From contig JAAXUC010000005.1 of assembly GCA_013336225.1 (NCBI GenBank), positions 59,630 through 96,595 of the forward strand: DNA of 36,966 nucleotides, given 5' to 3'. This DNA comes from Candidatus Moraniibacteriota bacterium (GTDB taxonomy: Bacteria > Patescibacteriota > Minisyncoccia > Moranbacterales > GWC2-37-73). The position numbers and the translations under genes are program-made. The notes beneath the pieces were generated by a model. That model had not been told where the DNA came from and made no database searches. It was given only the letters and a program-made list of their open reading frames with translations. Numbering within the stretch: the first letter of the stretch is position 1; every line of letters begins with the position of its first letter. Positions 7,314 through 33,362 of the stretch are shown piece by piece.

Positions 7314-8642
7314 ATGCAAAATAAAGCTTTAAAGTTTAAAAGCATTCTTCTTGTCATCAGTTTTTTGGTGTTGCCAGGTTTTTCCAAGGCGGCACCATTG
7401 ATATCTGCTCCCACGCCAAGCAGTGTGATCAGTGGGCAGGTTGTCACTGTTGCTGGCAGTGGCTTCGGGTCCAAGGCTGTCATTGCACCGATAAAATTTG
7501 ATGATTTTCAAGCTGGCAACAATGGTGATAGCGTCGCGACGCATGGCTGGGAAATCATAGGTGTTCCACCGATTATCAGCACGGAATTTCCAAGATATGG
7601 AGCAAAATCAGCGATGCATGATTTCACGGATACGGCTCAGTGGGACAGTGGATATTATTTAGGAGGTATGTTTGACAGTGCTAGTAGGCTTGGCTTAGAT
7701 CAGATTTATTTCTCCTATTATGTTTATACGAAACCCTTAAGAACAACATCGGTGTTATATAATCCAGCTAGTAATTATTCTGTTGGAGATTTGGTGCTGT
7801 GGAATAATACTGGTGGAGATTCCAAGACCATGGTTTGGGAATGCCAAACTGCGCACACCAGTAGCACACCTTTTGATCCAGCTTTGGAATATTACAATAA
7901 TTACACTTATTGGAAACCGGTATATTCCAGAAATGTGAAATATGGCAGAGCAACCAGTGGAACAGGCTCTGATGAGACGCGTGGAAATCCTCAATTTAAT
8001 TTGTTGACGCAATCTGAAAATGGAGGACCTTCTTGGTCGCAAGGTTTAAATAATGGTTCCGATACCAACGTTTTTTATTCGGGAGATTTTTTTGATCCGC
8101 AAGGAAAATTGTGGCCGCTCACTTGGCATCGCATAGAAGTCTATGTGAAACTTTCCAGCAGCGCTGGCGCAACTGACGGTGTTAGACAATATTTCAGCGA
8201 TGGCAAGGAAATCAAAAGGGAAGAAAATGTTGCCACTTTGACTGGCATTGATAATGATCCGCATTTTAATACGGTTTTTTCTCCCTACTATGTTTCGCAT
8301 GAACATGGATTGCCAGGAGATTTGTGGCCGGTGATGCCAGTGCAATATAAAATTTTCACTTCTGATTTCTATGTGGACAAAACTCGCGCGCGAGTGGAAA
8401 TTGGCAATGCGTCAACTTTTGCCAATTGCACGCATCGTGAAATTCAAATTCCACAAACAACCTGGAATGATGGTCAACTTGAAATAAAAGTGAATCAAGG
8501 AAGCTTTGCTGATGGTGCAACTGCATATTTATATGTTGTTGATGAAGATGGCAGTGTGAATGCTGTTGGCTATCCGATCACTTTTGATGGAATATTGGAT
8601 ACGACTGCACCCAGCGCACCAAGCGGACTTAGCGTTTTATAA
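7314..8642 (+). CDS. Secreted split-IPT/TIG protein with lectin-like insert (array gene 1)
   Basis: This 442-residue protein has a Sec signal peptide ending FLVLPGFSKA (cleavage near residue 25). The first half of an IPT/TIG domain follows (GQVVTVAGSGFGSK, to about residue 50). A region of about 300 residues is then inserted, containing FDDFQAG and KFGR-like beta-rich sequence. Its section at about 148-203 (YSVGDLVLWN, WECQTAHTS, YWKPV) resembles a short CBM5/12-type chitin-binding module; that match is weak. The second IPT half starts near residue 356 (TRARVEIGNAST, WNDGQLEIKVNQGSF, AYLYVVDEDGSVNAVGYPITF). The protein ends in the array tail DTTAPSAPSGLSVL. Likely extracellular and carbohydrate-binding; no catalytic residues were recognised. 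It begins the array after a terminator and a promoter. Confidence 0.75.
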   Translation: MQNKALKFKSILLVISFLVLPGFSKAAPLISAPTPSSVISGQVVTVAGSGFGSKAVIAPIKFDDFQAGNNGDSVATHGWEIIGVPPIISTEFPRYGAKSAMHDFTDTAQWDSGYYLGGMFDSASRLGLDQIYFSYYVYTKPLRTTSVLYNPASNYSVGDLVLWNNTGGDSKTMVWECQTAHTSSTPFDPALEYYNNYTYWKPVYSRNVKYGRATSGTGSDETRGNPQFNLLTQSENGGPSWSQGLNNGSDTNVFYSGDFFDPQGKLWPLTWHRIEVYVKLSSSAGATDGVRQYFSDGKEIKREENVATLTGIDNDPHFNTVFSPYYVSHEHGLPGDLWPVMPVQYKIFTSDFYVDKTRARVEIGNASTFANCTHREIQIPQTTWNDGQLEIKVNQGSFADGATAYLYVVDEDGSVNAVGYPITFDGILDTTAPSAPSGLSVL

Positions 8643-8648
8643 GAAATA

Positions 8649-8704
8649 ATGTACGTACCGATGTACCCGCACACTTAATTAAGTGTTATGGGTGTACGTA
8701 TATC
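8649..8704. repeat. Palindromic intergenic element, full form
   Basis: ATGTACGTACCGATGTAC and GTATATC flank a 31-nt insert at 8667-8697. The core of the insert is the perfect palindrome ACACTTAATTAAGTGT. It lies six bases after the preceding stop codon and has no T-run, so it is not a normal terminator. It is the same family as the elements at 9910, 12165, 14302, 15533, 18240 and 29853. Confidence 0.85.
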
Positions 8705-8746
8705 CGCATTCACAAATCTAAGTAAGTTTTTGGATGTAGATAAAGT

Positions 8747-9907
8747 ATGAAAACAAAATTTATTAAAATATTTTTTCTGTTCGTGACGTTTTTGATGTTG
8801 CCAAACTTGGCTTTTGCCACTCCCTCAATTGTTGATGTGAGTGGATCCTTGAATGATGGTCAAAATGTCAGCATCTCTGGCAGCGGATTTGGAGCGAAAA
8901 CAATTGCTGCTCCAGTCTATTGGGATAATTTTGAATCATATGCTCTGGGCAGTGCTCCGACTGCGGGTGGTTGGATTGTGCGAGCCGGCACTCCGACGAT
9001 TTCAAGTGAAAGACCTTATTCTTTCAGTAAATCGGTCAGATTCAACAATGCTGTGCATGATGTTTTTCAGCAGATGTCGCGCGACATGGGAACAAATTTC
9101 ACGCAAACAGTGTATTTCAAAGGCAAACTATATCTGGACAACACGCTGGATATTTGTCAGCAATATCAATGGAAAAATTTGAGATTTTCAAGTTCGCCAG
9201 GTGCCTATCATCAAAATGAGGAAACCTCAACTTCAATAACCATGATGAATCCTTGGTGGGAAGCAGCAGTTGGCAGCCGTTGGTTCAATACTGGTTCTCC
9301 TGATTTCTATTATAATGGAGGATTAAATGGCATTCCTGGAGGAACTCCGCTGTGGGGTGGCATCAATGCGCCGTCAACCTTATATCCATTTAATCAATGG
9401 TTTGACTATGAGTTCATAGTTAAACAATCCAGTGCAGCTGGCATTGCGGATGGTGCGCTCACGATCAATGTGAATGGAACACAAAAAACAAATGCCACTG
9501 GCTTGATCACTTATGGTGTTGGCGACGGGATTTATCGATACATGATGATGGGTGGAACCATTGCGTCTTGCAAGGATTCAACTGCAACCGTTTTGTTGGA
9601 TCCAAATTTCAAAATATATTACGATGACATGTATGTTGATGACACTCGAGCTCGAGTTGAGGTTTGCAATGCCAACACCAAAGCTGGGAGTACGCACTGT
9701 GAAATTCAAGTACCACAAAACACTTGGAGCGATGGTCAACTCGAAATCAAGTTGAATCAAGGGACATTTGCAAATGACTCAAGTGCCTATCTTTATGTGG
9801 CGGATGCAAATGGCAGCGTGAATGCAGTCGGCTTTCCAGTGACTTTCGGGGCCACCTCTGGCGACATCATTGCACCAGCGGCGCCGACTGATTTTGGCGT
9901 GCTATAA
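8747..9907 (+). CDS. Secreted split-IPT/TIG protein with lectin-like insert (array gene 2)
   Basis: This 386-residue protein has the signal peptide MKTKFIKIFFLFVTFLMLPN..AFA, cut near residue 25. IPT first half: NDGQNVSISGSGFGAK. The insert (about residues 52-298) begins YWDNFES, contains DGALTINVNGTQK, and ends YYDDMYVDD, as in jelly-roll lectin-like domains. IPT second half from about residue 299: TRARVEVCNANTKAGSTHCE, WSDGQLEIKLNQGTF, AYLYVADANGSVNAVGFPVTF. Tail: GDIIAPAAPTDFGVL, one of the more divergent tails (DFGVL for GLSVL). The last codons overlap an extended -10. Exported, with a probable glycan-binding role by fold only; the ligand is unknown. Confidence 0.75.
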   Translation: MKTKFIKIFFLFVTFLMLPNLAFATPSIVDVSGSLNDGQNVSISGSGFGAKTIAAPVYWDNFESYALGSAPTAGGWIVRAGTPTISSERPYSFSKSVRFNNAVHDVFQQMSRDMGTNFTQTVYFKGKLYLDNTLDICQQYQWKNLRFSSSPGAYHQNEETSTSITMMNPWWEAAVGSRWFNTGSPDFYYNGGLNGIPGGTPLWGGINAPSTLYPFNQWFDYEFIVKQSSAAGIADGALTINVNGTQKTNATGLITYGVGDGIYRYMMMGGTIASCKDSTATVLLDPNFKIYYDDMYVDDTRARVEVCNANTKAGSTHCEIQVPQNTWSDGQLEIKLNQGTFANDSSAYLYVADANGSVNAVGFPVTFGATSGDIIAPAAPTDFGVL

Positions 9908-9908: not shown

Positions 9909-9909
9909 A

Positions 9910-9971: not shown

Positions 9972-12161
9972 ATGAAAAAAACTTTTCTTAAAATTTACCC
10001 CATGAAATTGCACCAATATTTAACAGGGGTCTTTTTCCTTTTCACGATTTTTTTCATGCTGCCAAATTTGTCCAGTGCAGCTCCATCTGTAATCTCTCCC
10101 ACGCCAGTGAATGTTTCTGATGGTCAAGACATTACGATTTCTGGCTTAGCCTTTGGCACTGGTCCGAATGTTGCGTTGTTTGATGATTTTGAAAGTGGCA
10201 ACGTTGGGCAAACTTTGAAAATCGGAAGTGGTTCAGCCAGCCTTGGGCAATGGGATGGTTTTGATGGTGGATTGAATCTACAATACAATGATGTTTATAA
10301 GCGCAATGGTAATAAGTCACTGTGGATAGACAACACCACTAACGATGGTGGTGCAAGAAGCAATCTTGCTACTACTAATTTGGAAACATTCTTTTCTTTT
10401 TGGGCATATGTGCCAAGCGATAAGTGGTGGCCTGGTGCCAATTCTGAAACTGATTGGGGAATGGCAAATTGGAAGATTGCTTGGCTGAAGGATGACAACA
10501 ATTCCAATGCTGGCAGCAGCGATCTGTATTTTCCAGCATACTTGGGACACACTGGACCGCCAACATATTTAACTGCAGTCGTGTCTGGCAATAATGCTCC
10601 TTTGGATGCTTCTTACAATAATCCCATAATTAAGCGCGGAGAATGGTTTAATTTGTCTGGTTGGGTGAAAGGCAGAACGGATGGAACTGGAGAAATAAAA
10701 TTATCAGAAATGACAGCTTCAGCTGGAATTGTGAAGCAAGTGGATTTGAATAGCGTCAATACTATTCAGGCGGCAGATGCAACGCATACAGCTGCTCCAT
10801 ATTATTTCAACACTTTTATCTTGAATGGTTTTGCAAGAACTGGTGCAAATGATGCAGTTTATTTTGATGATGTCTATGTGGCCACTGGCGTCAATGCGCA
10901 AGCGCGGGTTGAAATCGGCAATGCTGCAACGTACAGCTCCTCAACCAATTTGACAATCTTGCCCACAACTTCATGGAGTGCAAATTCAATCACGACTAAA
11001 GTCAGACAAGGTTCATTTCCCAACGGTCAAGCGTATCTCTATGTCACTGATGCGAGTGGAAATGTAAACACGACTGGCTACTCCATAAATTTTGTGCCGA
11101 CCATTGCAACTGTCAGCGGCACCATTGGCGATGGACAAAGCGTGACGATTGCTGGCAGTGGCTTTGGCGCGACTGGCCCTGAAGTGCTTTTCTTTGACAA
11201 TTTTGAAAATGGCACAGTGGGACAAAACATCAACACCGGGGCTGGATCTGCCACAATTGGCGAGTGGAATTTGTTGGGTGTTGTTTCGCCAAAATACACT
11301 GATCTTTTTTCACAAAGTGGCAGCAAGGCTTTCATGGCAACATCAGATCCATTGGTTGAAGGCAATGATAATGGGTTAATTTTGTTGCCTAGCATAACAG
11401 AACTTGCGGTTTCTTTTTGGGTGATGGTGCCTGCCGGAGACAATGTTCCAGGCGAAGACGGTGGCATTCCTAATTGGAAGGTGACTTGGTTTGACACTGA
11501 TAAAACCTGGGGGACACCATATCAATATGCTGGAGATGATGATGTGGTCGTTCCTGCCTTATTGGGATTGAATAATTGGTATCCAACAACTGGCAACATG
11601 TCACCATATCAACCAGCGGAATATACGACTGGACCCAATGTGCCATTTTTGACAAAAGGTCAATGGAAACGGGTGTGGTATTGGTTTAAGGGCGGATCAA
11701 ATTTGGATGGAGCTTTTAAATTTTGGAAACTGGACAATGGCGGAGTTAATGCTGTCATTGGTCAAGACAATGTCACGACTATGTTGGCTGGAAATCACTG
11801 GAATTACATGTCTATCAATGCCTACACTCGTCAGCCGCTTTCATCTTCTCCACTACAAAGACAACTTTTTGATGATCTCTATATTGCCACTGGCTCAAGC
11901 GCGCAAGCGCGAGTGGAAATCGGCAACGCTGCAACTTATGCAACTTCGACTAATTTAACTTTGGCCACAGTGAACAGTTGGTCTGATGTTGCCGTAAGTG
12001 CCACGGTCAGGCAAGGAAGTTTCACGAATGGTCAGACAGCCTATCTCTATGTTTTTGATAAAGATGGAAATGTGAATGCAATGGGTTTTCCAGTGACTTT
12101 CGGCAGCGCTGTTGGCGACGTCACTCCACCCAGTGCGCCATCAGGATTAAGCGTGCTATAA
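9972..12161 (+). CDS. Secreted protein with two tandem split-IPT/TIG lectin-like modules (array gene 3)
   Basis: This 729-residue protein starts at 9972. The frame is open further upstream to 9870, but that would overlap the previous gene and spoil the signal peptide. The signal peptide is the long variant: MKKTFLKIYPMKLHQYLTG, then VFFLFTIFFMLPN..SSA. Module 1: IPT half SDGQDITISGLAFGTG, insert starting FDDFESGNVGQ and ending FDDVYVATG, second half at about residue 306 (NAQARVEIGNAATY). Module 2: starts near residue 375 (GDGQSVTIAGSGFGATG), insert FDNFENGTVGQ to FDDLYIATG, second half near 642. Tail: GDVTPPSAPSGLSVL. There is no linker or tail between the modules, so only the true C-terminus bears the tail. 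Its 3' DNA is very similar to the ends of the next two genes. Likely an extracellular glycan binder with two binding domains. Confidence 0.75.
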   Translation: MKKTFLKIYPMKLHQYLTGVFFLFTIFFMLPNLSSAAPSVISPTPVNVSDGQDITISGLAFGTGPNVALFDDFESGNVGQTLKIGSGSASLGQWDGFDGGLNLQYNDVYKRNGNKSLWIDNTTNDGGARSNLATTNLETFFSFWAYVPSDKWWPGANSETDWGMANWKIAWLKDDNNSNAGSSDLYFPAYLGHTGPPTYLTAVVSGNNAPLDASYNNPIIKRGEWFNLSGWVKGRTDGTGEIKLSEMTASAGIVKQVDLNSVNTIQAADATHTAAPYYFNTFILNGFARTGANDAVYFDDVYVATGVNAQARVEIGNAATYSSSTNLTILPTTSWSANSITTKVRQGSFPNGQAYLYVTDASGNVNTTGYSINFVPTIATVSGTIGDGQSVTIAGSGFGATGPEVLFFDNFENGTVGQNINTGAGSATIGEWNLLGVVSPKYTDLFSQSGSKAFMATSDPLVEGNDNGLILLPSITELAVSFWVMVPAGDNVPGEDGGIPNWKVTWFDTDKTWGTPYQYAGDDDVVVPALLGLNNWYPTTGNMSPYQPAEYTTGPNVPFLTKGQWKRVWYWFKGGSNLDGAFKFWKLDNGGVNAVIGQDNVTTMLAGNHWNYMSINAYTRQPLSSSPLQRQLFDDLYIATGSSAQARVEIGNAATYATSTNLTLATVNSWSDVAVSATVRQGSFTNGQTAYLYVFDKDGNVNAMGFPVTFGSAVGDVTPPSAPSGLSVL

Positions 12162-12195: not shown

Positions 12196-14298
12196 ATGAA
12201 AATAAAATTTATTAAAATATTTTTTCTTTTGACAAGCTTTTTCATGCTGACAAATTTTGCCAGCGCGGCGCCAATCATAGCTGCACCAACTCCAATAAAT
12301 GTGTCCAGTGAACAAGACATCACAATCACTGGCAGTGGCTTTGGCTCGATGAGTGCTGATAGGATTGGCACAGGAAGACTAAACCATCTGTGGCTTGATT
12401 TTGCTGGCGGAAATTTGCTGCAAGATTCAATTTGCACGGCTGATCAAAACGCTTGGATGGTGACGGCTGATGGCGGGCGCGTGGCTGATAAATATTACGC
12501 CAAAAGAGTTGATCCTAATGCTGGTTTTGATCCTGATAATGTTGGAGGATTGACTTGCGGCGACGGAAATTATTTCGGCTATGCTCCAGGTATAAATGGC
12601 ACTTTGTTTTTATCCTATTGGTTTAAGATTCCAAGCACTGCAACCAGTGGCAAAAACATGCGCATCAGGTTTGATGGACCGGAAGCAAATCCAAGTTACA
12701 GCGATTTCTATACAATGGCTGGCATTTATTCAGGCACCGACAATTGGTTTTTGCGGCAAGCTTCCGATAAACCAGGCGGCGTTACGAATAGTTATGTTAG
12801 CGCCAATGAACTTGATCGCGATCAGTGGCAGCGGGTCGACATGCTGTTCACTGGCGGAGCAACTCCATCTCAGAAAGCTTGGATTGTGGGAAAAAACAGC
12901 AACAATCCACAATACACGCAAGATGTGAACATGCCGCCAGTCAATAACGTGGCGATAAACATTGGGGCTGGCAAAGACAATGGCAACGCATTGCCACTTA
13001 ATCAATTGGCCACCAGCGATTATTATGCCTATGACGATGTGTATGCCTCTTTCACACAAGCGAGAGTGGAAGTGTGCGATGCAAACGTTTGGTCAAGCAG
13101 AAATCATTGTGAGCTGCAACTTCCCACTGTTTGGTCAAGCACAAATGCAACCATAAAAATTAATCAAGGTTCATTTCCAAGTGGTCAGGCCTATCTCTAT
13201 ATTATTGACGCCAATGGCGAAGTGAACTCTGCTGGCTATGCCATAAATTTCGTGCCGACCATCTCAAATGTCAGCGGCACGATTGGTGATGGACAAAATA
13301 TCACAATTTCTGGAGCTGCTTTCGGAAGCAGCGGGCCAAGCACGGAAATCTTTGATGATTTTGAAAAGGGCACTGTTGGGCAAAACATAAATACAGGTGC
13401 TGGCTCTGCTCAAGTTGGGCAATGGACTTCTTTGGATGGCGCGCCAATGTATTCAAATGCATCAAGCCTAAGTGGGAATAATGCCATGCGCTCTGACATG
13501 TCAACTGGATATCGGGTAGATGCAATGATGTCGTTGCCAGCCAACACGACTAAAGTTTTTGGATCTTGGTGGGTCTATTTGCCCGCCGGAAATAATTTCC
13601 CAGGAGAGGGAACTGTTGATGGTACTAATTGGAAACAAGTTTGGATGATGGATGGTGATTCAACTGGAATTCGCGACTATGTTGTCACTTTGATCATGCA
13701 ACCAAGTGGTTGCGGAACTGGCATTACTCACAATGACACCACTGGCGGTGTCTTCACTAGCTGGCTGCCAACTTTCACTATGCCCAAGGGCAGATGGGTG
13801 AAAGTTTGGTATTATGTTGATGGTAAAAGTGATGCGACTGGAAAATTTGATTTTTGGTATCTGGACAATAATGGGGGAATACCGGTGCACGATGCCAATC
13901 TATCGAATATTGTGACACTGTCAACAAAAGTCGGAGGAACTGGTTATTGGGACAGAATTTATTTCAATGCTTATGGAAGACAAACTAATAACAGTTATCC
14001 AATGTTTGATGACATCTACGTGGCCACTGGTCCCAATGCGCAAGCGCGCGTGGAAATCGGCAACGCTGCAACTTATGCAGCCTCAACTAATTTAACTTTG
14101 GCCACTGTGAACACTTGGTCTGATGCTGCCGTAAGTGCCACGGTCAGACAGGGAAGTTTCACTGGTGGTGAGCAGGCATATCTCTATGTTTTTGATAAGG
14201 ATGGAAATGTGAATGCAACAGGTTTTCCTATGACTTTCGGTAGCACTACTGACGACGTCACTCCACCCAGCGCACCCTCTGGTTTAAGCGTGCTATAG
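12196..14298 (+). CDS. Secreted protein with two split-IPT/TIG lectin-like modules (array gene 4)
   Basis: This 700-residue protein starts at 12196; an upstream ATG at 12172 lies in the palindrome and gives a poor signal peptide. Signal: MKIKFIKIFFLLTSFFMLTN..ASA. Module 1: IPT half SSEQDITITGSGFGSM, insert of about 230 residues (TLFLSYWFKIP, WQRVDMLFTGG, YYAYDDVYAS), second half from about 285 (QARVEVCDANVWSSRNHCEL). Module 2: from about 353 (GDGQNITISGAAFGSSGPST), insert FDDFEKGTVGQ to FDDIYVATG, second half from about 613 (NAQARVEIGNAATYAASTN). Tail: DDVTPPSAPSGLSVL. Module 1 carries the Cys-containing version of the frame (VEVCD..HCEL) and module 2 the Cys-free version (VEIGN), so the gene joins two lineages of the frame. 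Exported; ligand unknown. Confidence 0.75.
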   Translation: MKIKFIKIFFLLTSFFMLTNFASAAPIIAAPTPINVSSEQDITITGSGFGSMSADRIGTGRLNHLWLDFAGGNLLQDSICTADQNAWMVTADGGRVADKYYAKRVDPNAGFDPDNVGGLTCGDGNYFGYAPGINGTLFLSYWFKIPSTATSGKNMRIRFDGPEANPSYSDFYTMAGIYSGTDNWFLRQASDKPGGVTNSYVSANELDRDQWQRVDMLFTGGATPSQKAWIVGKNSNNPQYTQDVNMPPVNNVAINIGAGKDNGNALPLNQLATSDYYAYDDVYASFTQARVEVCDANVWSSRNHCELQLPTVWSSTNATIKINQGSFPSGQAYLYIIDANGEVNSAGYAINFVPTISNVSGTIGDGQNITISGAAFGSSGPSTEIFDDFEKGTVGQNINTGAGSAQVGQWTSLDGAPMYSNASSLSGNNAMRSDMSTGYRVDAMMSLPANTTKVFGSWWVYLPAGNNFPGEGTVDGTNWKQVWMMDGDSTGIRDYVVTLIMQPSGCGTGITHNDTTGGVFTSWLPTFTMPKGRWVKVWYYVDGKSDATGKFDFWYLDNNGGIPVHDANLSNIVTLSTKVGGTGYWDRIYFNAYGRQTNNSYPMFDDIYVATGPNAQARVEIGNAATYAASTNLTLATVNTWSDAAVSATVRQGSFTGGEQAYLYVFDKDGNVNATGFPMTFGSTTDDVTPPSAPSGLSVL

Positions 14299-14363: not shown

Positions 14364-15521
14364 ATGAAAATAAAACTTATTAAAATATTTTTTCTCCTTG
14401 TAACCTTTTGTGTGTTGCCAAGTTCGGCCAGTGCAACTTTAGAGGTGAATAATGTCAGCGGCACGATTGCTGACGGACAAAACATCACAATTTCTGGAGC
14501 TGCTTTCGGAAGCAGCGGGCCAAGCACGGAAATTTTTGATGATTTTGAGGGTGGGGTTGCTGGGGATATTGTGCCACTAACTAGTCCAAAAGTTGGAACC
14601 TGGACAGGATATAATAGTCTAGTTCCTAATCAACCAAAATATGACAGCACTGCTCATTCTGGAGCTGGCAGTTTTCGTTCTTTTGATGGAAACACTCATT
14701 ATACGCTTAGCATGATTAAAACATTTGATCCTGCAACTGAAGGCTTCGTTTCTTTTTGGGTTAAATTGCCAGCAGGAACATATTTTCCTGGCAATACTGG
14801 CGATACCGCAGGTTCTTATCCGACAAATAGTGCATGGAAGATGACTTGGTTTATGGACACGCCAATTGGTGGTGGTGTGGCAAATGATGATTGGACCGTG
14901 CCAACTTGGATTGGAAGTGGCCCAGCCATTTCAGGGAATGACCAACCTGCAACTTTTTGGCTTGATAATGATTGGTGGTCTTTTTCAAATTGGGTGCGAG
15001 TATCTTATTGGATGAAGGCTGGAGTAAATCAAATTGTGGATAACGGAAATATTTGGTTTCAGGGTTTAAATGAAGGCGTGATTCAAAAAACATATACAAA
15101 AAATGATATTCCACTTTTTAATACTATATCGCGTGGAACTTCAAAGGACACCGATTATCATTGGCGACAATTGAACATTCCTGGATGGATGGACACTTCC
15201 TATTCTGGTCCCAATGTGCGGCCAGTGTATGATGATATTTATGTGGCCACTGGTGCCAACGCGCAAGCGCGCGTGGAAATCGGCAACGCCGCAACTTATG
15301 CAGCTTCAACGAATTTGACAATTTCCACGGTGAACAGCTGGTCTGATGCTGCAGTGAATGCCACCATTAGGCAGGGAAGTTTCACTGATGGTCAATCAGC
15401 GTATGTTTATGTTTTCGATAAAGATGGCAATGTAAATGCTTCTGGATTTCCTGTTACTTTCGGCAGCGCTGTTGGCGATGTGATTGCGCCCAGCGCACCA
15501 GCTGGATTAAGCGTTTTATAA
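14364..15521 (+). CDS. Secreted split-IPT/TIG protein with lectin-like insert (array gene 5)
   Basis: This 385-residue protein has the signal MKIKLIKIFFLLVTFCVLPS..ASA. The IPT first half (ADGQNITISGAAFGSSGPST, FDDFEGG) is almost identical in DNA to module 2 of the previous gene (14451-14548 against 13267-13365). The insert then diverges (ATEGFVSFWVKLPAGTYFPG, WVRVSYWMKAG, YDDIYVATG). Second IPT half from about residue 297: NAQARVEIGNAATYAASTN, SWSDAAVNATIRQGSF, AYVYVFDKDGNVNASGFPVTF. Tail: GDVIAPSAPAGLSVL. It looks like a one-module relative of array gene 4 made by duplication or gene conversion. An exported glycan-binding role is inferred from the fold. Confidence 0.75.
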   Translation: MKIKLIKIFFLLVTFCVLPSSASATLEVNNVSGTIADGQNITISGAAFGSSGPSTEIFDDFEGGVAGDIVPLTSPKVGTWTGYNSLVPNQPKYDSTAHSGAGSFRSFDGNTHYTLSMIKTFDPATEGFVSFWVKLPAGTYFPGNTGDTAGSYPTNSAWKMTWFMDTPIGGGVANDDWTVPTWIGSGPAISGNDQPATFWLDNDWWSFSNWVRVSYWMKAGVNQIVDNGNIWFQGLNEGVIQKTYTKNDIPLFNTISRGTSKDTDYHWRQLNIPGWMDTSYSGPNVRPVYDDIYVATGANAQARVEIGNAATYAASTNLTISTVNSWSDAAVNATIRQGSFTDGQSAYVYVFDKDGNVNASGFPVTFGSAVGDVIAPSAPAGLSVL

Positions 15522-15590: not shown

Positions 15591-15758
15591 ATGAAAGCAT
15601 ATACCAATGAAAACATCAGAAAAATAACTAAGACTGGTTCTGGCAGCTATTGTGTTATAATTCCCAAAGAAATGATCAAGGAACTTAATTGGAAAGAGAG
15701 ACAAAAAGTTGTCATCAAAAAGTCGGGCAAAGAAATAATCATCAAGGATTGGAAATGA
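15591..15758 (+). CDS. AbrB/MazE-like swapped-hairpin DNA-binding protein (55 aa)
   Basis: This small ORF reads MKAYTNENIRKITKTGSGSY, then CVIIPKEMIKELNWKERQKV and VIKKSGKEIIIKDWK. The pattern K-I-T-K-T-G-(x)n-V-I-I-P-K-E-M, L-x-W, V-x-I is typical of AbrB/SpoVT/MazE domains, which bind DNA as dimers and often act as antitoxins or transition regulators. No toxin gene adjoins it: the next gene is a secreted array protein. Its stop overlaps that gene's ATG (ATGA at 15755-15758), which suggests coupled translation. A perfect extended -10 (TGTTATAAT) lies inside the ORF. It could regulate the array, but this is inference. Confidence 0.75.
   Translation: MKAYTNENIRKITKTGSGSYCVIIPKEMIKELNWKERQKVVIKKSGKEIIIKDWK
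15653..15661 (+). promoter_or_regulatory. Extended -10 inside the AbrB-like gene
   Basis: TGTTATAAT lies about 95 bases ahead of the start at 15755 and could give that gene its own transcript. It may be chance, since it also encodes conserved residues (CVI). Confidence 0.3.
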
Positions 15759-17003: not shown

Positions 17004-17027
17004 ATTATTAAAATAATTAAAATTATT

Positions 17028-22658: not shown

Positions 22659-22712
22659 ATGCAAAAACTCAGCCAAAGGCTGATCAGCCTTTGGCTGAAA
22701 ATCTATGAATAA
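22659..22712 (+). CDS. Possible leader peptide (17 aa) overlapping the next start
   Basis: This reads MQKLSQRLISLWLKIYE, stop at 22710-22712, overlapping the ATG at 22705 by eight bases. A second uORF at 28674-28712 has the same ending ISLWLKIYE and the same overlap. It may be a by-product of the palindrome it contains. Confidence 0.3.
   Translation: MQKLSQRLISLWLKIYE
22669..22698. repeat. Perfect 30-nt palindrome just before a start codon
   Basis: TCAGCCAAAGGCTGA and TCAGCCTTTGGCTGA form a perfect palindrome that ends six bases before the ATG at 22705. It could fold in the mRNA and hide the start. A 15-base relative lies at 28684-28698. Confidence 0.85.
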
Positions 22713-25219: not shown

Positions 25220-26160
25220 AAACAAAAATTCTAAAATTATTTTTCCTCCTAGCAATCTTTTTTGCGCTCTCGAATTTTGCCAGGGCGGCAATCAGTTTTG
25301 ACAGCAATGGAAGGTGGGAGACGACCTTTAACTGTCCAGAATGGATTCAGAATAATGCACTTAGTTGTGACTCACTGGATTTGTTTGGTAGTTGGTTTAC
25401 TACGATGGAAAATAAGGGTTCACAGATAACAGCATCAGCCAATAACCCCTTGGGAGTTGGTGGGGGATTTAGGCATTGGATAGGTGACTATATTCAAAAT
25501 GCTGTAAATATTTCAAATGACAACTCTGGGCCAATTGGACCTGAATTTCCATCTCCTCAGCAAGAACTTTGGATCAGGTGGTATTTGCGATTTGAAGAGG
25601 GAATGGCTTGGGATGATGCAACCTACACAGGAACCAAGTTATACCCCTACTATCACAAATTGTTATACATTTATTCGGCAGGAACGACACAGGTGATCCC
25701 AGGTTTCGTGATTAGTGACAACATGGCTTTAACGGCGCAAGCAACCAGTAATTATTATCAAGTTGCAACCCCTTCTGGATCAGGAGATTGGAATAGGATT
25801 AATGGTGGAAACACTGGGGATGGAGAATTTCATCTTTATGAGGTGCATATTAAAATGGATACTAATCAAACGGATGGAGTGGGGGAATTCTGGATTGATG
25901 GTGCCTTGGTAGCTTCTAATTATGCTGTTGACTGGAGTGATGGAGATGCTTTCGCAAAACAAGGCTGGGAATATATAAAAATCGGAAACAATCAGGCGTG
26001 GTCACATAACAATCGTGCAGTATATGAAGATTTTGATGACATTGTTATCTATAACACCACCCCTCCAAATTTGGACACAAATGGAAATCCTTTTATTGGG
26101 CCAATCGGTTATGGAGATATGACTCCGCCAAGTGTGCCAAGTAATCTCTCGGTGTTATAA
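25216..26160 (+). CDS. Secreted jelly-roll protein of the GKWETTFxC type (array gene 12)
   Basis: This 314-residue protein starts four bases before the end of the RhuM-Fic gene, so translation is probably coupled. Signal: MKTKILKLFFLLAIFFALSN..ARA. The body begins ISFDSNGRWETTFNCPEW and has NNPLGVGGGFRHW, QQELWIRWYLRFEEGMAWDD, GDGEFHLYEVHIKMDTNQTD, GVGEFWIDG, YEDFDDIVIYNTTPPNLD, NGNPFIGPIG. Tail: GDMTPPSVPSNLSVL. Closest in plan to array genes 8, 13 and 14. Jelly-roll, lyase-like or lectin-like; function not proven. Confidence 0.7.
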   Translation: MKTKILKLFFLLAIFFALSNFARAAISFDSNGRWETTFNCPEWIQNNALSCDSLDLFGSWFTTMENKGSQITASANNPLGVGGGFRHWIGDYIQNAVNISNDNSGPIGPEFPSPQQELWIRWYLRFEEGMAWDDATYTGTKLYPYYHKLLYIYSAGTTQVIPGFVISDNMALTAQATSNYYQVATPSGSGDWNRINGGNTGDGEFHLYEVHIKMDTNQTDGVGEFWIDGALVASNYAVDWSDGDAFAKQGWEYIKIGNNQAWSHNNRAVYEDFDDIVIYNTTPPNLDTNGNPFIGPIGYGDMTPPSVPSNLSVL

Positions 26161-26169: not shown

Positions 26170-27126
26170 ATGAATAAAAATATTTTCAAAACAATTTTTT
26201 TCTTGGCTGTGTTTTTAATGTTGCCTGACTTAGTGTCTGCGTCTGCGCCGATTAGTTTTGTTGACGGAAAATGGGAAACCACATTCAATTGTGCGGAGCA
26301 TGACACACCTAATGGCTCCAGCTATGATTGCGCTGGAATGATAGTTCCAAATGGTGGCGGAAGTGAGGGAACAGATCAGCCAATCAATGTGACAAGAATA
26401 ACATCTGCTGCAAATAATCCGCTGGGAGCAGGAAATGGCGCCAGGTTTTGGAATAAAGATGGGAGCAACAATTGTTCAACAGCATATCGAATTTTCTTTC
26501 CAATCAAATTGACTGAGGTCTGGATTCGTTTTTATGAACGATATGAATCAGGATTTACCTGGAGCAATTTGGTTTATGACAAGCAGCTGTATCTTCATAC
26601 GGATTCACCCGAATATCAAGCTGTGATTGTGGAGCCTTACGGATGGAATAATTGGCAAGCTGCCGTGCAAGGAGTTTCTGGTTCAAATGCATCCAGTCAG
26701 ATTGAGGCGAATGGTTTCGGTTGGCAATCTGTGATGGGTGGCAATCTGGCTGATGGATTGTTTCATTCTTACGAAGTACATCTTAAAATGGATACGACTG
26801 GAATTGCTGGAACTACTGGACAACCTGTGCCGACTGCTGATGGCATAGGTCAGCTCTGGATTGATGGCGTGCTCAGAGCTAATAATCTGGCGGTAAATTT
26901 CAGTAATGGTAATGTTATAGCTAAAACTGGTTGGAGCTATTTCACTTTTGACAGCAATCAATCATCACCGGCCAACAGTAAAGAATCTTATGTCGATTAC
27001 GATGACATGGTTGTTTATAGCACCACTCCTCCTAATTTAGACACAAATGGGAATCCCTTCATTGGACCAATTGGATTTGGCGATGCGACAGCGCCTGCTG
27101 CACCGAGCGGACTGAGTGTTTTATAA
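26170..27126 (+). CDS. Secreted jelly-roll protein of the GKWETTFxC type (array gene 13)
   Basis: This 318-residue protein has the signal MNKNIFKTIFFLAVFLMLPD..VSA. The body begins ISFVDGKWETTFNCAEHD and has NNPLGAGNGARFWNKDG, LTEVWIRFYERYESGFTWSN, GWQSVMGGNLADGLFHSYEV, HLKMDTTG, GIGQLWIDGVL, YVDYDDMVVYSTTPPNLD, NGNPFIGPIG. Tail: GDATAPAAPSGLSVL. The start codon follows a perfect extended -10 so closely that a leaderless mRNA is likely. Exported; likely polysaccharide-interacting. Confidence 0.7.
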   Translation: MNKNIFKTIFFLAVFLMLPDLVSASAPISFVDGKWETTFNCAEHDTPNGSSYDCAGMIVPNGGGSEGTDQPINVTRITSAANNPLGAGNGARFWNKDGSNNCSTAYRIFFPIKLTEVWIRFYERYESGFTWSNLVYDKQLYLHTDSPEYQAVIVEPYGWNNWQAAVQGVSGSNASSQIEANGFGWQSVMGGNLADGLFHSYEVHLKMDTTGIAGTTGQPVPTADGIGQLWIDGVLRANNLAVNFSNGNVIAKTGWSYFTFDSNQSSPANSKESYVDYDDMVVYSTTPPNLDTNGNPFIGPIGFGDATAPAAPSGLSVL

Positions 27127-27232: not shown

Positions 27233-28567
27233 ATGCAAAATAAAATTCTAAAACTATTTTTTCTCCTCGCAATCTTTTTGATGCTGCCTAATTTTGCCAA
27301 GGCCTTGAATACTGCACCCTCTATTATTAGTGGGACATATACATCCAGGCAAGATGTGCAATTGTCTTGCAGTGATGCTGTTGGTTGCGCTGAAACCCTG
27401 TATTGCATCGGTGCAGGTTGCACGCCGAATAAGAAATATTATTACGCTGAGGGCGTCTATGCGGATGCACATATTTACATGACAGGTGATGCAGTTTTGC
27501 GATATCACAGTCGTGATGCTTTGGGAAATTGGGAAGCCATAAAAGAAACTGTTTATAATGTGAATCTTAATGAGTCAGTCATCTCATTTACAAATGGAAA
27601 ATGGGAAACATCTTTTGCTTGTCCAGATTGGGTTCATCTTTATGGTCAAATAGTCTTAAATTGTGATGGAATAACCCAGGGAGGAAACTGGGTTTCGGGA
27701 TTTGAAATTGCCAGGAATTTGCCAACCACTGAAGCAATCTTGATTGATAATAATTGGAAGTCGGAAGAGATCAAGGCGTGGGCGAATAATCCCGCTGGAG
27801 TGGCTGATTCTGGTGCCCAACTTCACTATTTGTATACCGGAAAGGATGGTACAAATTGCGATTGCAAAGAATATGATTGTTCATATCCTCGAGCAACCAA
27901 CTGTCCAAATTCAGGAGGCTTGAGAATAAAATTTTCCGAAGTTTTGCAGGAATATTGGATCAGGTTTTATCAATACTTCCCATCTGAAATGACATGGGGA
28001 GCAGCTTTTAGTGGAGGAAAGACGTTGTATTTTGATCATGATTATACAAGCGGATGGTACTTTATGTTTCCTCGTTATCCTGAAAATACAGGTATTCATT
28101 TTCAAACCAATGAAGAGGGGTCAACGACGGATGTTGGCACTGTAGTCTCCGGTAATGGTCTGGCTGGCGCTGACTGGCTTGCATCAAGTAATAGACAAGG
28201 CTATGGCAGATGGATACCGGTGGAATTGCATCAAAAAGTTGATACGAACAACGCTAACGGGATAGTTCAAATATGGGTTGATAATGTTCTTGTTTTGGAT
28301 AGGCAAGATTTTGATTTCGGTTGGTCTGAGATGACTAACCCAGTTGAAAAAATAGAAGTCGATGGTTTCAGGGAAATTCTTATTGGCTCAAACACAAATG
28401 GGCCAGAAGGTTCACCAGATATTAATATCCCAATTAGATATGATGATTTTGCAATCTACAAAACAATTCCACCAAATTTGGATGCAAATGATAATTCCTT
28501 CATCGGACCCATTGGTTATGGCGATGTGACTCCGCCAGGTGCGCCGAGCGGATTGAGTGTTTTATAG
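27233..28567 (+). CDS. Secreted jelly-roll protein with N-terminal CHB_HEX_C-like domain (array gene 14)
   Basis: This 444-residue protein has the signal MQNKILKLFFLLAIFLMLPN..AKA. Residues about 25-105 (APSIISGTYTSRQDVQLSC, KKYYYAEGVYADAHIYMTGD, LRYHSRDALGNWE) resemble the chitobiase/FN3-like C-terminal domain (CHB_HEX_C_1) found in many carbohydrate-active proteins; two Cys pairs may form disulfides. The jelly-roll part follows: ISFTNGKWETSFACPDW, NNPAGVADSGAQL, LQEYWIRFYQYFPSEMTWG, WIPVELHQKVDTNNANG, IVQIWVDNVLV, YDDFAIYKTIPPNLD, FIGPIG. Tail: GDVTPPGAPSGLSVL. It is the only member with an added N-terminal module. Extracellular; probably polysaccharide-interacting. Confidence 0.7.
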   Translation: MQNKILKLFFLLAIFLMLPNFAKALNTAPSIISGTYTSRQDVQLSCSDAVGCAETLYCIGAGCTPNKKYYYAEGVYADAHIYMTGDAVLRYHSRDALGNWEAIKETVYNVNLNESVISFTNGKWETSFACPDWVHLYGQIVLNCDGITQGGNWVSGFEIARNLPTTEAILIDNNWKSEEIKAWANNPAGVADSGAQLHYLYTGKDGTNCDCKEYDCSYPRATNCPNSGGLRIKFSEVLQEYWIRFYQYFPSEMTWGAAFSGGKTLYFDHDYTSGWYFMFPRYPENTGIHFQTNEEGSTTDVGTVVSGNGLAGADWLASSNRQGYGRWIPVELHQKVDTNNANGIVQIWVDNVLVLDRQDFDFGWSEMTNPVEKIEVDGFREILIGSNTNGPEGSPDINIPIRYDDFAIYKTIPPNLDANDNSFIGPIGYGDVTPPGAPSGLSVL

Positions 28568-28673: not shown

Positions 28674-28712
28674 ATGCAAAATATCAGCCTATGGCTGAAA
28701 ATTTATGAATAA
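28674..28712 (+). CDS. Possible leader peptide (12 aa) overlapping the next start
   Basis: This reads MQNISLWLKIYE, stop at 28710-28712, overlapping the ATG at 28705 by eight bases. It shares its ending and overlap with the uORF at 22659. It contains the small palindrome TCAGCCTATGGCTGA (28684-28698). It may be the fossil start of a duplicated array gene. Confidence 0.3.
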   Translation: MQNISLWLKIYE

Positions 28713-29850
28713 TCTACATTTGAAATTAAAACTATTTTTTCTCCTCGCAATCTTTTTGATGCTGCCTAATTTTGCCAAGGCGGCACCAGTTGTGGATAGT
28801 ATTTCAGGTAATATTTCTCAGGGGCAAGTCGTCACTTTTAGTGGTTCAGGATTTGGAGAGAAGTCAGTCGCTCAACCACTTAAATTCGAAAACTTTTCAG
28901 GAGGATCAAATAACACGCGTATTTATCCGAATGATTCTTTTTGGGAAAAGTATGGTGATACAGGCGCGGTGTATAGTTCAACTAAAGCGCATTCAGGAAG
29001 CTTGTCTTTTGGATCACACATTTTGCCTGGTGGAAATGATTTTGAAACAAATTTTCACACCTTCGCAGCGCCAATGAATGAAATGTTTATTTCATATTGG
29101 TACTATATTGATGCTGATAGTTCGCAAGGTAGATCAGTCATTAAGCTTCCGCGCATAAGTTCCTCAGAGGCAGCTGGTGGAGGAGGAGTTTATAATGGTG
29201 CTGGTGGTATGACACTGGGCGGTACTTATGACTTGTTAACTAGTACTGGTCCGTATTGTGCTTTCAATGATGGCAATGGTGCAGAGTTGTTCACTGCAAC
29301 TGATGTTGCTCGACTTGAGTCGCCATATCCTTCAAATAAAACTTGGATTCGAGTTGATATGTATAAAAAACTTTCAACTGCTGGCATTGCTGATGGTGTT
29401 GTACAGGTTAAAATATATGGTTTTAATTCAGCTGTTAATAATGCTGCAATGACAAGAGCTGCAGGTCAAACATTTTTGCTTGATACTGTTTATTTGGCTA
29501 TGGAAGATGGATTTGAAAGTAGTCATAATTACTGGATGTATTTGGATGATATATATGTGGACAACACAAGAGCAAGAATTGAAATTTGTAATGCTAACAC
29601 GTGGTCAGCGGTAACAAAATGTGAAACTCAGCCAGCATCAGTGTGGTCATTTGATACAGGAACAGGAGCAAGTTCGGCAACAGTGACAGTGAGTCAAAAC
29701 TCATTTGCAAGTGGCGACACGGGCTATGTTTACGTGGTGGATGCAAATGGGCAAGTTAATAATACGACCCCAGCATCAATGATCATATTCGGCACTGATT
29801 CATCTGATATTACTCCACCCAGTGCGCCGACTGGACTTGGGGTTTTATAA
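28705..29850 (+). CDS. Secreted split-IPT/TIG protein with lectin-like insert (array gene 15)
   Basis: This 381-residue protein has the signal MNNLHLKLKLFFLLAIFLML, PN..AKA. IPT first half: SQGQVVTFSGSGFGEK. Insert (about 53-284): KFENFSGGSN, MNEMFISYWYYIDADSSQG, WIRVDMYKKLSTAGIADGVV, YLDDIYVDN. Second half from about 285: TRARIEICNANTWSAVTKCE, SSATVTVSQNSFASG, GYVYVVDANGQVN. Tail: SDITPPSAPTGLGVL. The N-terminus resembles that of the beta-helix gene at 22705 (MNN.xLK), including the hairpin and uORF before it, while the body is unrelated. This shows ends and bodies being reshuffled. Exported; ligand unknown. Confidence 0.75.
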   Translation: MNNLHLKLKLFFLLAIFLMLPNFAKAAPVVDSISGNISQGQVVTFSGSGFGEKSVAQPLKFENFSGGSNNTRIYPNDSFWEKYGDTGAVYSSTKAHSGSLSFGSHILPGGNDFETNFHTFAAPMNEMFISYWYYIDADSSQGRSVIKLPRISSSEAAGGGGVYNGAGGMTLGGTYDLLTSTGPYCAFNDGNGAELFTATDVARLESPYPSNKTWIRVDMYKKLSTAGIADGVVQVKIYGFNSAVNNAAMTRAAGQTFLLDTVYLAMEDGFESSHNYWMYLDDIYVDNTRARIEICNANTWSAVTKCETQPASVWSFDTGTGASSATVTVSQNSFASGDTGYVYVVDANGQVNNTTPASMIIFGTDSSDITPPSAPTGLGVL

Positions 29851-29942: not shown

Positions 29943-31487
29943 ATGAATACGAATATTTTCAAAATAATTTTTCTCCTGGTGGCATTTTTAGTGTTGCCAG
30001 ATTTTGCCAAAGCGGCAAATACTTTTTATGTTGATGGCGGCGCTGTTGATGACACTGGAAGTGGCGCGCAAAATTCCCCGAAAAAATATATCACATCTGG
30101 ATTGCAATTGATGTTAGGCGGAGACACTCTTATTATTGAAGACGGAATCTATGCTGGTGAAAATAATATGATTGGTGATTATTCAAATCCTCGATATTAT
30201 CCACCATCGGGAACGGTTGGCACTTACACCATGATTCAGGCCAGAAATGTTGAACAAGTTATTATTGATGGTGAATATCTGAGAGCGCCATTTTCAATGA
30301 TTGGAGTTGTGGGTCGCGATTATCTTCATATAGACGGCATACACTTTAGGCGCGGTGTTGCTGGCGTATTTAACATTCGAGGATCATATAATAAGGTTAC
30401 TAATTGTGGCATGGAGGATGGTTTAGCATCAAACACTGATACGGAAACAGAAATCGCTAGTGTTATCGGCGGTTCTTCTTATACCTTAATTGAAGATTGT
30501 TGGGTGTGGGGCAAAGGTCGTTACGGATTTTATACTTCATCTTCCAATGGTGGTGCAAATCATGTCATTTTCAGAAGGATTGTGGTGAGATTCGATTCGA
30601 GTCCTAGCGGTGAAAAGCCGACTTCAGGTATTAGATTTTATAATGGTGATACGAATTCAGCTCAAAATGTAGTAGTGCTTGATTCTAATATTGCTTCTGA
30701 CGCATATTATCCAGAAGCAGTGGGTACTGGCGGTGGAAGCTCCACCACTGGCGAACCGAACCATACTTTTTATGGAATTATCTCACTTAATAATCTAGGT
30801 ATGAGCGGGTATCATTTTGAGATGACTCGTAACCCAGTGCTTATTTCCAATAGTGTTGTATGGGGTGGCGATATGGGAATAGAATCTTCTGGAAATAATA
30901 CTGCTGGATTAGTTATTAATGCTCAAAATGTAACAGCAGGACAAAATACGCGCTATGAATTTTATCGTAATATAAATTACACTGGCATGCTGATGAATGT
31001 CGCTGATTCAATAGCTGTCACTGAAAGTGGCGGTCAGGCATATTTAAATCCAAACTCGCTTTCAAATTCTGAACATTACATTGCTCCTGGCGGGAGTGCT
31101 GGTCAGTCGACAGGTTCGACCTTGATAACAGAAGTTGCTTTGAATGAAAAACTTAAATACCTGCCGCGTCCCGAGAGTGGAACAGCTGGTGCTACTATCC
31201 TGTATCAGATCGGTGTGAGTGGCACATTGCATGGTGAAGCTGGATGGAATACTACAACAACTCAACCGCTTTGGCCTTTTGCCAATGAAGCGATGTGGGC
31301 TGCAAAAATGAAAACATATAATGCCTCTGGACCAGGAGGCAACAGGGGATTTGCTGCGCTTGCTGGCTCAACTCAAACGCCACTCACTGATTATATTTGG
31401 GGATATCTTGGAAATCCCAAACCAGACATCTATGGCGAAAATGACATCGTCGCACCCAGCGCACCGACCGGACTTGGGGCACTATAG
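29943..31487 (+). CDS. Secreted right-handed beta-helix protein (array gene 16)
   Basis: This 514-residue protein has the signal MNTNIFKIIFLLVAFLVLPD..AKA. The mature start NTFYVDGGAVDDTGSGAQNS is a DUF1565-like beta-helix opening, followed by GGDTLIIEDGIYAG and strand repeats (YLHIDGIHFRRGVAGVFNI, NKVTNCGMEDG, TLIEDCWVWGKGRYGFY, VIFRRIVVRFDSS, VVVLDSNIASDAYY, PVLISNSVVWGGDMGIE). Residues about 380-500 form a non-repeat C-terminal part. Tail: NDIVAPSAPTGLGAL. Possible roles are polysaccharide lyase or adhesin. The active site is not identifiable by eye. Confidence 0.8.
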   Translation: MNTNIFKIIFLLVAFLVLPDFAKAANTFYVDGGAVDDTGSGAQNSPKKYITSGLQLMLGGDTLIIEDGIYAGENNMIGDYSNPRYYPPSGTVGTYTMIQARNVEQVIIDGEYLRAPFSMIGVVGRDYLHIDGIHFRRGVAGVFNIRGSYNKVTNCGMEDGLASNTDTETEIASVIGGSSYTLIEDCWVWGKGRYGFYTSSSNGGANHVIFRRIVVRFDSSPSGEKPTSGIRFYNGDTNSAQNVVVLDSNIASDAYYPEAVGTGGGSSTTGEPNHTFYGIISLNNLGMSGYHFEMTRNPVLISNSVVWGGDMGIESSGNNTAGLVINAQNVTAGQNTRYEFYRNINYTGMLMNVADSIAVTESGGQAYLNPNSLSNSEHYIAPGGSAGQSTGSTLITEVALNEKLKYLPRPESGTAGATILYQIGVSGTLHGEAGWNTTTTQPLWPFANEAMWAAKMKTYNASGPGGNRGFAALAGSTQTPLTDYIWGYLGNPKPDIYGENDIVAPSAPTGLGAL

Positions 31488-31580
31488 GGAACGTATAAAG
31501 TATCTTGTATTATGTATGATGTATAAATACCGAATGCAAAAAAATAAAAAAGTAGGTAGATATTTGAATATGTATTTAAA

Positions 31581-33362
31581 ATGCAAAATAATTTTTTAAA
31601 ATTTTACCCTGTGAAATTGAGCTCATATTTAACTGGGGTATTTTTTCTCCTCACCATCTTTTTAATGCTGCCGAATTTTGCGGCTGCATATACGGTGCGT
31701 GTAATCACTATCAATCCAGATGTGCATATCCCAGGCGGATCCTATGCTTCACCATTTATCATAACTACGGGAAATACGAAATATATCCTTGATGCCGACA
31801 TTTTTGCTGATAGTTCTGGCATTATGCTTAATGGGAATTTATCGAACATTATTATCGATCTTAATGGTCACACTATTACATATAATCAGGTGTCTCCAGG
31901 TGTTGGAATTGGTTCACTTGATTGGAGCACTTCAGATGTGGCAATTATCAATGGCTCTATTGTTCAGGGGTTTGCCATGTCTGATGGTGTTGTATATGGA
32001 ACGGGGAGTAATCCTATCAGATTTTATGCTGGGACACCTCAGTCATATAATGTTTTCAGGGTTCAGATTGCAGGTGTTTCGGTGCGCTATGGATCAAAAG
32101 ATGTTGGCGGGATAATTCTTGGAGCTGATGGTCATTTAATAGAGGATAATATTATTGAAGACACTTATGAATATGGCATTGTGACAGACAGGCATGTTGG
32201 GATTCCAGCAATTAGGACAGTTGGGCAAGATAGCATTATAAAAAATAATACATTAACCAACGTTAGGCAAAGAGGGATAGATCTTGGTCAAGACAGTGAA
32301 GCATTTGGAAACAATGTAAGTATCCGCAGCATTTGCACTAATTCTGTTGGTATCTCAACGGATTCACATGGTGTGAAAATATATGACAACATCATTAATG
32401 GTCGAGGTGAACACCCTATAGGTATTGGAGCTCATAATTCAACACTTAATGCCTCTTATGATAATGAAATTTATAACAATACTATTGATGTTCAAACGAC
32501 CCGCATCGGTCTTGAATATTTTGGTGCCTATCCCTCCGATGCGCTGACGGCTGTTCATATTGCGGATAGGGCAGTTGGAATACGCAGCACATCAGGAGCT
32601 TATAACTTGAAGGTACACGATAATGTTATTAGCGCAGCTAGTGATAGTGATTTTATGGGCACCTATTCTCCTGATGGCAGAGCAATTCGCATATCAGGAG
32701 GCGCCAGGGGAGTAATGGCTGGTGTTCGTTATAATGAACAAAGTGCAAGATTTTACAACAACACGATAACGGTTCTTGATAAGGATGGAACTGGTTATGC
32801 TGCTGGTTTTGCTTGCGATGCAAATATAGATAATAATAATGAACCAGCTCCAAATTTCAGGCCACCAGCCGTCGATTTCGCACCATCATTTATCGTTGAA
32901 AATAATGTCATAACCAGCAATGTATATAATTTTATTTTTGGAGATGATTATCAGTCATGCAATGGGGATGCACTTTTTATAGGCAATACGCTCATTAAAT
33001 CAAATTCTTATGCATCATATGCCACTTATGGTGTTGGACTTGGCGGTTATTATGGCAACAAGGTGCGAGTGATTGGAAGTGTTTATCAGTCTGGTGCGGC
33101 AGAAAACAGTCTGGATTTTTATTGGTCCAATGTGACCAATTTAATTGAAGGTGTTGGTGGTTCATATAGAGGAAAGTCGATTACATTTGGTGATCTCCAA
33201 TTAGACAATCATCTTTACTATCGTTACAAGCTGCATAATGTGGAGGGGACAACTGGCAGCGCAACACCAATCAATAGCACGCTCAATGCTATTGGTCCCT
33301 TGTTTTATTTTCAAGCAGACGTTGTTGCACCTAGTGCTCCAGTTGGTCTGGAAATTTTGTAA
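31581..33362 (+). CDS. Secreted right-handed beta-helix protein (array gene 17)
   Basis: This 593-residue protein carries the long signal variant MQNNFLKFYPVKLSSYLTG, then VFFLLTIFLMLPN..AAA, otherwise seen only at 9972. The body has beta-helix repeats: IIIDLNGHTITYN, VAIINGSIVQGFAMSDGVV, HLIEDNIIEDTYEYGIVTD, SIIKNNTLTNVRQRGIDLG, VKIYDNIINGRGEHPIGIG, NEIYNNTIDVQTTRIGLEYF, FIVENNVITSNVYNFIFGD, ALFIGNTLIKSN. The Asn-rich turns (NNT, DNI, NNV) are typical of PbH1 ladders. Tail: ADVVAPSAPVGLEIL. It is the last array gene before the rRNA region. Extracellular; lyase, epimerase or adhesin. Confidence 0.8.
   Translation: MQNNFLKFYPVKLSSYLTGVFFLLTIFLMLPNFAAAYTVRVITINPDVHIPGGSYASPFIITTGNTKYILDADIFADSSGIMLNGNLSNIIIDLNGHTITYNQVSPGVGIGSLDWSTSDVAIINGSIVQGFAMSDGVVYGTGSNPIRFYAGTPQSYNVFRVQIAGVSVRYGSKDVGGIILGADGHLIEDNIIEDTYEYGIVTDRHVGIPAIRTVGQDSIIKNNTLTNVRQRGIDLGQDSEAFGNNVSIRSICTNSVGISTDSHGVKIYDNIINGRGEHPIGIGAHNSTLNASYDNEIYNNTIDVQTTRIGLEYFGAYPSDALTAVHIADRAVGIRSTSGAYNLKVHDNVISAASDSDFMGTYSPDGRAIRISGGARGVMAGVRYNEQSARFYNNTITVLDKDGTGYAAGFACDANIDNNNEPAPNFRPPAVDFAPSFIVENNVITSNVYNFIFGDDYQSCNGDALFIGNTLIKSNSYASYATYGVGLGGYYGNKVRVIGSVYQSGAAENSLDFYWSNVTNLIEGVGGSYRGKSITFGDLQLDNHLYYRYKLHNVEGTTGSATPINSTLNAIGPLFYFQADVVAPSAPVGLEIL

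Follow-up and report, generated by a model that had tools for sequence, protein, structure and literature searches.

The window analysed here is a stretch of 36,966 nucleotides at the end of a contig of a Candidatus Moraniibacteriota bacterium (G000:C23:59630-96595; genome size 1.11 Mb), which contains between positions 7314 and 33362 seventeen plus-strand genes for exported proteins with different bodies but common ends, namely a hydrophobic signal peptide (FFLLxxFFMLPNFAxA at its core) and a tail at the C-terminus. On the basis of sequence comparisons and structural models we propose, with a probability of about 0.83, that the array encodes interchangeable cargo of a plug-and-socket surface display, in which the tail would provide the first strand (A) of a fibronectin type III (Fn3) domain and complement anchor proteins (termed sockets) whose Fn3 domain lacks this strand, combined with cohesin-dockerin contacts. 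All 17 genes with both common ends described in the first-pass annotation of the window were recovered, and the data support its suggestion of a shared export or assembly route and render it more specific, as the tail appears to be an Fn3 strand A and the same genomes encode anchors devoid of that strand. In the following, G numbers denote genomes (G000 being that of the window), C numbers contigs of G000 and L numbers the individual loci examined.

The tail comprises 14 residues of the general form D-x-x-[AP]-P-x-A-P-x-G-L-x-V-x-stop (D-[VTI]-[TI]-[AP]-P-[SAG]-A-P-[STA]-G-L-x-V-[LIM]-stop in the array) and corresponds, as judged from its sequence, to strand A of an Fn3 domain directly followed by a stop codon. 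A count over 462 open reading frames (ORFs) of 37 loci gave 72 C-terminal copies of the motif and only two internal ones, both of which continue into complete Fn3 domains (DTTPPTIPTNLSATAISSSQINLSWTAS). The tails invariably end exactly three residues after a conserved Leu/Phe (72/72; 51/51 in loci picked without the tail pattern). All 72 tails have Leu or Phe at position -4, as imposed by the search pattern, and 71/72 have Val or Ile at position -2, which the pattern does not impose; conserved residues at -4 and -2 combined with variable ones at -3 and -1 reflect the alternation of a β-strand with one face in the core, and purifying selection on Leu(-4) and Val(-2) across orthologues is suggested. 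When the cargo starting at 28705 was modelled alone with AlphaFold, its residues 368-381 came out as coil with a predicted local distance difference test score (pLDDT) below 50. At the DNA level, a tighter tail-plus-stop pattern has 24 matches in the genome, which all lie on the same strand, against none for the reversed control, while a broader pattern finds 32 sites in G000 and, when reversed, a single site over all 96 genomes of the comparison; since the matches far exceed the controls, the tail is not a product of chance. A second array on C6 contributes 10 further tail genes and others are located on C8, C11, C14 and elsewhere on C23, which amounts to about 34 tail genes in the genome if two genes missed by the pattern (window position 29943 and L071 position 7411) are added.

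The presumed counterparts are small exported proteins that are either anchored in the membrane or secreted and equipped with a dockerin; their Fn3 domain begins only at strand B. In G001, a relative of the same genus, and in G063 such proteins adjoin tail genes and their mature part begins directly at Fn3 strand B (e.g. GSAMLKWNSNTEDDLNGYKIYYG). The match to the Pfam model fn3 (PF00041, 84 positions) begins at position 11-17 in every socket scanned, and strand A is missing in 34/34 socket proteins, compared to its presence in all 8 generic Fn3 domains examined in other genomes. In most sockets only a few residues separate strand B from the preceding transmembrane helix or signal peptide, precisely where a generic Fn3 domain has strand A. 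Several sockets carry Dockerin_1 (PF00404) and neighbours in the same operons Cohesin (PF00963) according to Pfam; on contig C22 of the window's own genome a membrane-anchored socket, a dockerin socket and cohesin proteins lie together (L058 10630-15301). In G003 an Fn3 domain without strand A is fused to the C-terminal domain of a cohesin scaffold (61% identity over 118 amino acids), as would be expected if socket and scaffold form one attachment chain. ParA/ParB-like genes were observed directly upstream of the socket operon in G000 (L058 8802-10605) and G012 (L059 6080-7894).

Tails and sockets are found in the same genomes. Strong socket matches (E <1e-20) and clear tails coincide in 11 of 96 relatives, belonging to three families, and 83 relatives have neither (Fisher p 9e-13, uncorrected for relatedness); the remaining two show a single match to the tail pattern each, apparently by chance, and one of these matches contains an internal stop. 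In a phylum sample of 381 genomes only G383 has, besides the window's own genome, several tails (8), and it is also the sole second strong socket match, with an E value of 2e-36 compared to 2e-19 for the next. A scan of named genomes for the membrane socket pointed to Moranbacteria, Wolfebacteria, Brennerbacteria, Portnoybacteria and other Parcubacteria-type genomes, and tails are present in 5/7 further socket-bearing genomes that had been found independently of the tail. Within the genus of the window three species possess both sockets and tails and three possess neither; the former carry 32, 9 and 5 tail genes, respectively, in line with the variable gene content between close relatives anticipated by the first-pass annotation. 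The tails are not a general attribute of secreted proteins either, as they are clustered, and the sockets, the cohesin scaffolds and the large upstream proteins have none.

This coincidence extends to gene order. In ten loci the nearest tail gene lies 8-770 bp from the socket gene, and operons exist with six, four or two cargos ahead of the sockets. In Wolfebacteria GWB1_47_1 (L089) six cargos are followed by a membrane socket and then a secreted socket, and other clear operons occur in G053 (L062), G042 (L061), Brennerbacteria (L090), L101 and G003 (L064). Genes resembling those of AAA ATPases/DUF4143-type proteins alternate with tail genes in G053 (L062 2837, 5636) and G001 (L021 9577-15348). 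At L071 of the window's own genome a small variant-tail protein (7411-7848, ending in DLTPPSSASNLSVQ and a stop) is encoded divergently to a different Fn3 protein without strand A (8122-9630), and the two may perhaps constitute a second, independent plug/socket pair.

The two halves appear to be complementary as parts of one domain. If the tail is joined to the socket by a loop of four residues, the fn3 match extends from position 1-2 onwards and reaches 43.1-46.9 bits, compared to 36.6 bits for the socket alone and 38.3-41.0 bits for control C-termini (reversed, shuffled or unrelated) attached through the same loop. For structural modelling a natural in-frame stretch (L062:8109-8687) was used, in which the stop codon was read through purely to tether the tail to the neighbouring socket. 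In the resulting AlphaFold model the tail residues 37-42 form a strand in a block with a pLDDT of 83, flanked by regions with values in the 40s to 50s; the remaining chain folds as Fn3, the best PDB matches being Fn3 domains. We regard this tethered model as supportive, not decisive.

A strictly C-terminal position, a fixed length and a strong conservation on otherwise different exported proteins are also features of sorting or processing signals recognized by a dedicated enzyme or translocon, as in PEP-CTERM, LPXTG or the C-terminal domain (CTD) of the type IX secretion system (T9SS), and the similarity of the tail to Fn3 might then be incidental or ancestral. We consider this explanation unlikely because no curated C-terminal sorting-signal model of NCBIfam matched in a scan of seven cargos, because the tail contains neither a transmembrane nor a basic segment, and because the Fn3 partners without strand A, which co-occur with and adjoin the tail genes, would remain unexplained.

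Even less probable, in our judgement, is that the tails have no present function and are what is left of a former Fn3 domain or of a split gene, multiplied by duplication and by recombination at the ends of genes. Codon identity at shared residues somewhat exceeds the prediction from codon usage (0.44 compared to 0.32 for the tails, 0.61 compared to 0.44 for the signal peptides) and tandem near-copies occur at the 3′ end of the array, but remnants should vary in length instead of ending identically in 72/72 cases with alternating Leu/Phe and Val across families and genera, and the complementary half is intact in separate genes. The codon agreement fits an expansion by duplication with exchange of bodies. 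It thus lends modest support to the recombination at gene ends envisaged by the first-pass annotation, which does not, however, account for the partner sockets. A fusion of cargo and downstream socket into one split-Fn3 chain by stop-codon read-through or frameshifting is very improbable: tail genes do end 67 bp (L062) and 256 bp (L064) before socket genes in matching frames, but the pairs in L061 and L025 are out of frame, most cargos including all 17 of the window are far from sockets, and the fused chain would contain an internal transmembrane helix or signal peptide.

Several observations weigh against the split-Fn3 display. The two best socket genes of the window's own genome reside on C22, away from the array, a tail gene is lacking in the examined stretch of about ten socket loci, and the socket-bearing genomes G476 and G479 have no tail by the strict pattern. 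Some domain scores in the own genome are marginal, with 20.5 bits for Dockerin_1 and 20.6 bits for Cohesin, both just below the Pfam cut-offs, and 20.7 bits for fn3 of the dockerin socket; a second Fn3 candidate in L070 (1906-2727) is a weaker and more generic match. The score gain of the joined domain depended on a loop chosen by us, and direct joining yielded 37.2 bits for G000 (no gain) and 34.7 bits for G053 (slight gain). Finally, the tether model represents a single artificial construct without a decoy tail, the strand pairing was derived from DSSP alone, and only two alignment rows include the tail.

Consistent with the data on both halves we propose the following scenario for the split-Fn3 display. 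The cargo would be exported by the Sec pathway via its signal peptide, and its last 14 residues, equivalent to Fn3 strand A, would stay free and flexible. The Fn3 domain of the anchor, which begins at strand B right after the transmembrane helix or the signal peptide, would present an open edge, into which the cargo strand might insert outside the membrane, thereby completing the sandwich with Leu(-4) and Val(-2) as core residues. In this way, the cargo would be held non-covalently either on the membrane by a transmembrane-anchored socket or on a dockerin adaptor that presumably binds to cohesin proteins of the cell. Two to three sockets per genome are accompanied by up to dozens of cargos, and a few sockets serving many cargos would account for the common ends on different bodies as well as for the patchiness with which cargo genes are gained and lost. 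We lean, with less confidence than for the array itself, towards a general natural tag/socket code in Patescibacteria, in which a 14-residue Fn3 strand mounts any exported protein on a few membrane or cohesin-dockerin sockets, such that the surface repertoire shifts via tagged cassettes and not via anchors. For the question of how these very small and mostly uncultured bacteria, also known as CPR, display proteins for attachment to other cells or polymers, the proposal provides a concrete and cheaply testable mechanism, names the anchors and offers a 14-residue tag by which the surface cargo of any such genome can be listed.

The bodies of the 17 cargos (Table 1) were assigned by Pfam and AlphaFold. 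Pfam detected IPT/TIG domains in several cargos and the polysaccharide lyase family PF14099, a jelly roll, in those with the GKWETTFxC motif, mostly just below the cut-off; a scan of ten further cargos gave no Pfam match. The AlphaFold model of the cargo at 28705 (mean pLDDT 67) resembles jelly-roll polysaccharide lyases (PL20 2zzj, PL14 5gmt, Aly36B 6kcw) and other lectin-like sandwiches, and the insert of the split-IPT bodies is modelled as a concanavalin-like jelly roll. Profiles of the IPT type and the GKWETTF type align with a probability of 99%, to which the common tail adds. The bodies thus fall, according to these models and profiles, into two unrelated fold classes, jelly rolls, some of them with a split IPT, and β-helices. 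Of the three unrelated folds distinguished by the first-pass annotation the β-helix stays separate, and the split-IPT and GKWETTFxC types merge as jelly rolls. The bodies probably bind or cleave polysaccharides.

Table 1. Predicted cargo genes of the array (positions in the window; each tail is followed by the stop codon)
Gene	Position	Strand	Predicted body	Tail	Remarks
Cargo 1	7314..8642	+	split IPT + jelly roll	DTTAPSAPSGLSVL	signal peptide; tail at 8598-8642; TIG below cut-off
Cargo 2	8747..9907	+	split IPT	DIIAPAAPTDFGVL	signal peptide; TIG above cut-off
Cargo 3	9972..12161	+	two IPT/jelly-roll units	DVTPPSAPSGLSVL	longest ORF from 9870, likely ATG 9972
Cargo 4	12196..14298	+	two IPT/jelly-roll units	DVTPPSAPSGLSVL	TIG + Polysacc_lyase, weak
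Cargo 5	14364..15521	+	IPT/jelly roll	DVIAPSAPAGLSVL	
Cargo 6	15755..17002	+	IPT/jelly roll	DAIAPGAPSGLSVL	
Cargo 7	17004..18233	+	IPT/jelly roll	DIIAPSAPGGLNVM	signal peptide upstream of first ATG (17076)
Cargo 8	18328..19248	+	GKWETTFDC jelly roll	DVTSPSAPASLSVI	Polysacc_lyase PF14099 E 2e-6
Cargo 9	19296..20504	+	IPT/jelly roll	DVTAPSAPSGLFVQ	
Cargo 10	20547..21731	+	IPT/jelly roll	DTTAPEAPTGLGVL	
Cargo 11	22705..24075	+	right-handed β-helix	DTIAPGAPSGLGVL	PF13229 E 1e-12
Cargo 12	25216..26160	+	GRWETTFNC jelly roll	DMTPPSVPSNLSVL	
Cargo 13	26170..27126	+	GKWETTFNC jelly roll	DATAPAAPSGLSVL	
Cargo 14	27233..28567	+	extra N-terminal domain + GKWETSFAC jelly roll	DVTPPGAPSGLSVL	
Cargo 15	28705..29850	+	split IPT + jelly roll	DITPPSAPTGLGVL	tail disordered in AlphaFold model
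Cargo 16	29943..31487	+	β-helix-like repeats	DIVAPSAPTGLGAL	no Pfam match
Cargo 17	31581..33362	+	β-helix-like repeats	DVVAPSAPVGLEIL	no Pfam match

The likely ATG start lies downstream of that of the longest ORF in cargos 3, 4 and 6 (9972, 12196 and 15755). In cargo 7 the signal peptide is encoded in frame at 17004-17075 (IKKRLLKYFCLFVVFFMLSEFVLAA), ahead of the gene as read from its first ATG (17076-18233), which probably indicates a non-ATG start (ATT/ATA) or else suggests a lost start codon. Two genes within the array span are not members of it: one for an MscS-like channel (21834-22589), the like of which also adjoins tail genes in the relative G003 (L064 11914-12603), and one for a RhuM + Fic protein (24215-25219), with a similar-looking gene in the tail-gene region of G001 (L021 18746-19783). 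An intergenic palindrome (8646, 14299, 15526, 18237, 29849; GTACCC..ACACTTA-TAAGTGT..GGGTGTAC) might have been a cassette or integron-like site, a reading that was rejected because the palindrome follows only some of the genes and is confined to the array cluster; four close copies with up to three mismatches were counted, only in this cluster of the genome. Outside the array, positions 3-4529 encode a large protein with long internal repeats (GLNSLAYASTINNTNWSG...) reminiscent of phage tail-fibre or intramolecular-chaperone proteins, the adjoining sequence being N-masked in L009, and positions 34100-36966 up to the contig end resemble 23S ribosomal RNA, with an apparent extra segment at about 36370-36540.

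The physical principle of the proposed display has precedents, although the system as a whole fits no known family that we can name. To our knowledge, no split-domain sorting system of such a kind is known, and the open-access literature on Fn3 donor strands, split fibronectin tags, cohesins of CPR/Patescibacteria and Fn3 in Moranbacteria yielded no description of a natural Fn3 strand tag for diverse cargo. In type V pili the donor strand is C-terminal. Strand complementation or exchange is described for type V pili (Mfa1/FimA), TasA and archaeal threads (PMC5954841, PMC9674648, PMC9715654), where, as proposed here, an incomplete β-sandwich is completed by the strand of another exported protein. 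Compared to these systems, the fold would be Fn3, the donors many different cargos instead of one polymerising subunit and the acceptors a few anchors. The operons showed neither chaperone nor usher nor activating protease, and the scanned cargo and operon proteins matched no pilin. With cellulosomes the socket operons share proteins containing cohesin (PF00963) and dockerin (PF00404). In contrast to the cellulosome plan of enzyme-borne dockerins and a multi-cohesin scaffoldin, dockerin is absent from the cargos scanned with Pfam and is located on the Fn3 adaptor without strand A, which would create a second, split-domain joint between cargo and scaffold. LPXTG, PEP-CTERM and T9SS CTD proteins likewise sort many different exported proteins by one common C-terminus, whereas the present tail has no membrane-spanning or charged segment and its predicted receptor is a β-sandwich without that very strand. 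A further analogy is offered by SpyTag/SpyCatcher and other CnaB tag/catcher pairs (e.g. PMC5487036), in which one strand of an immunoglobulin-like domain is the peptide tag for the rest of it; those pairs are engineered and covalent, and the present one is apparently natural. If the proposal is true, the display would be a natural counterpart, built on the widespread Fn3 fold, of engineered split-domain tags, and new peptide tags could be drawn from it.

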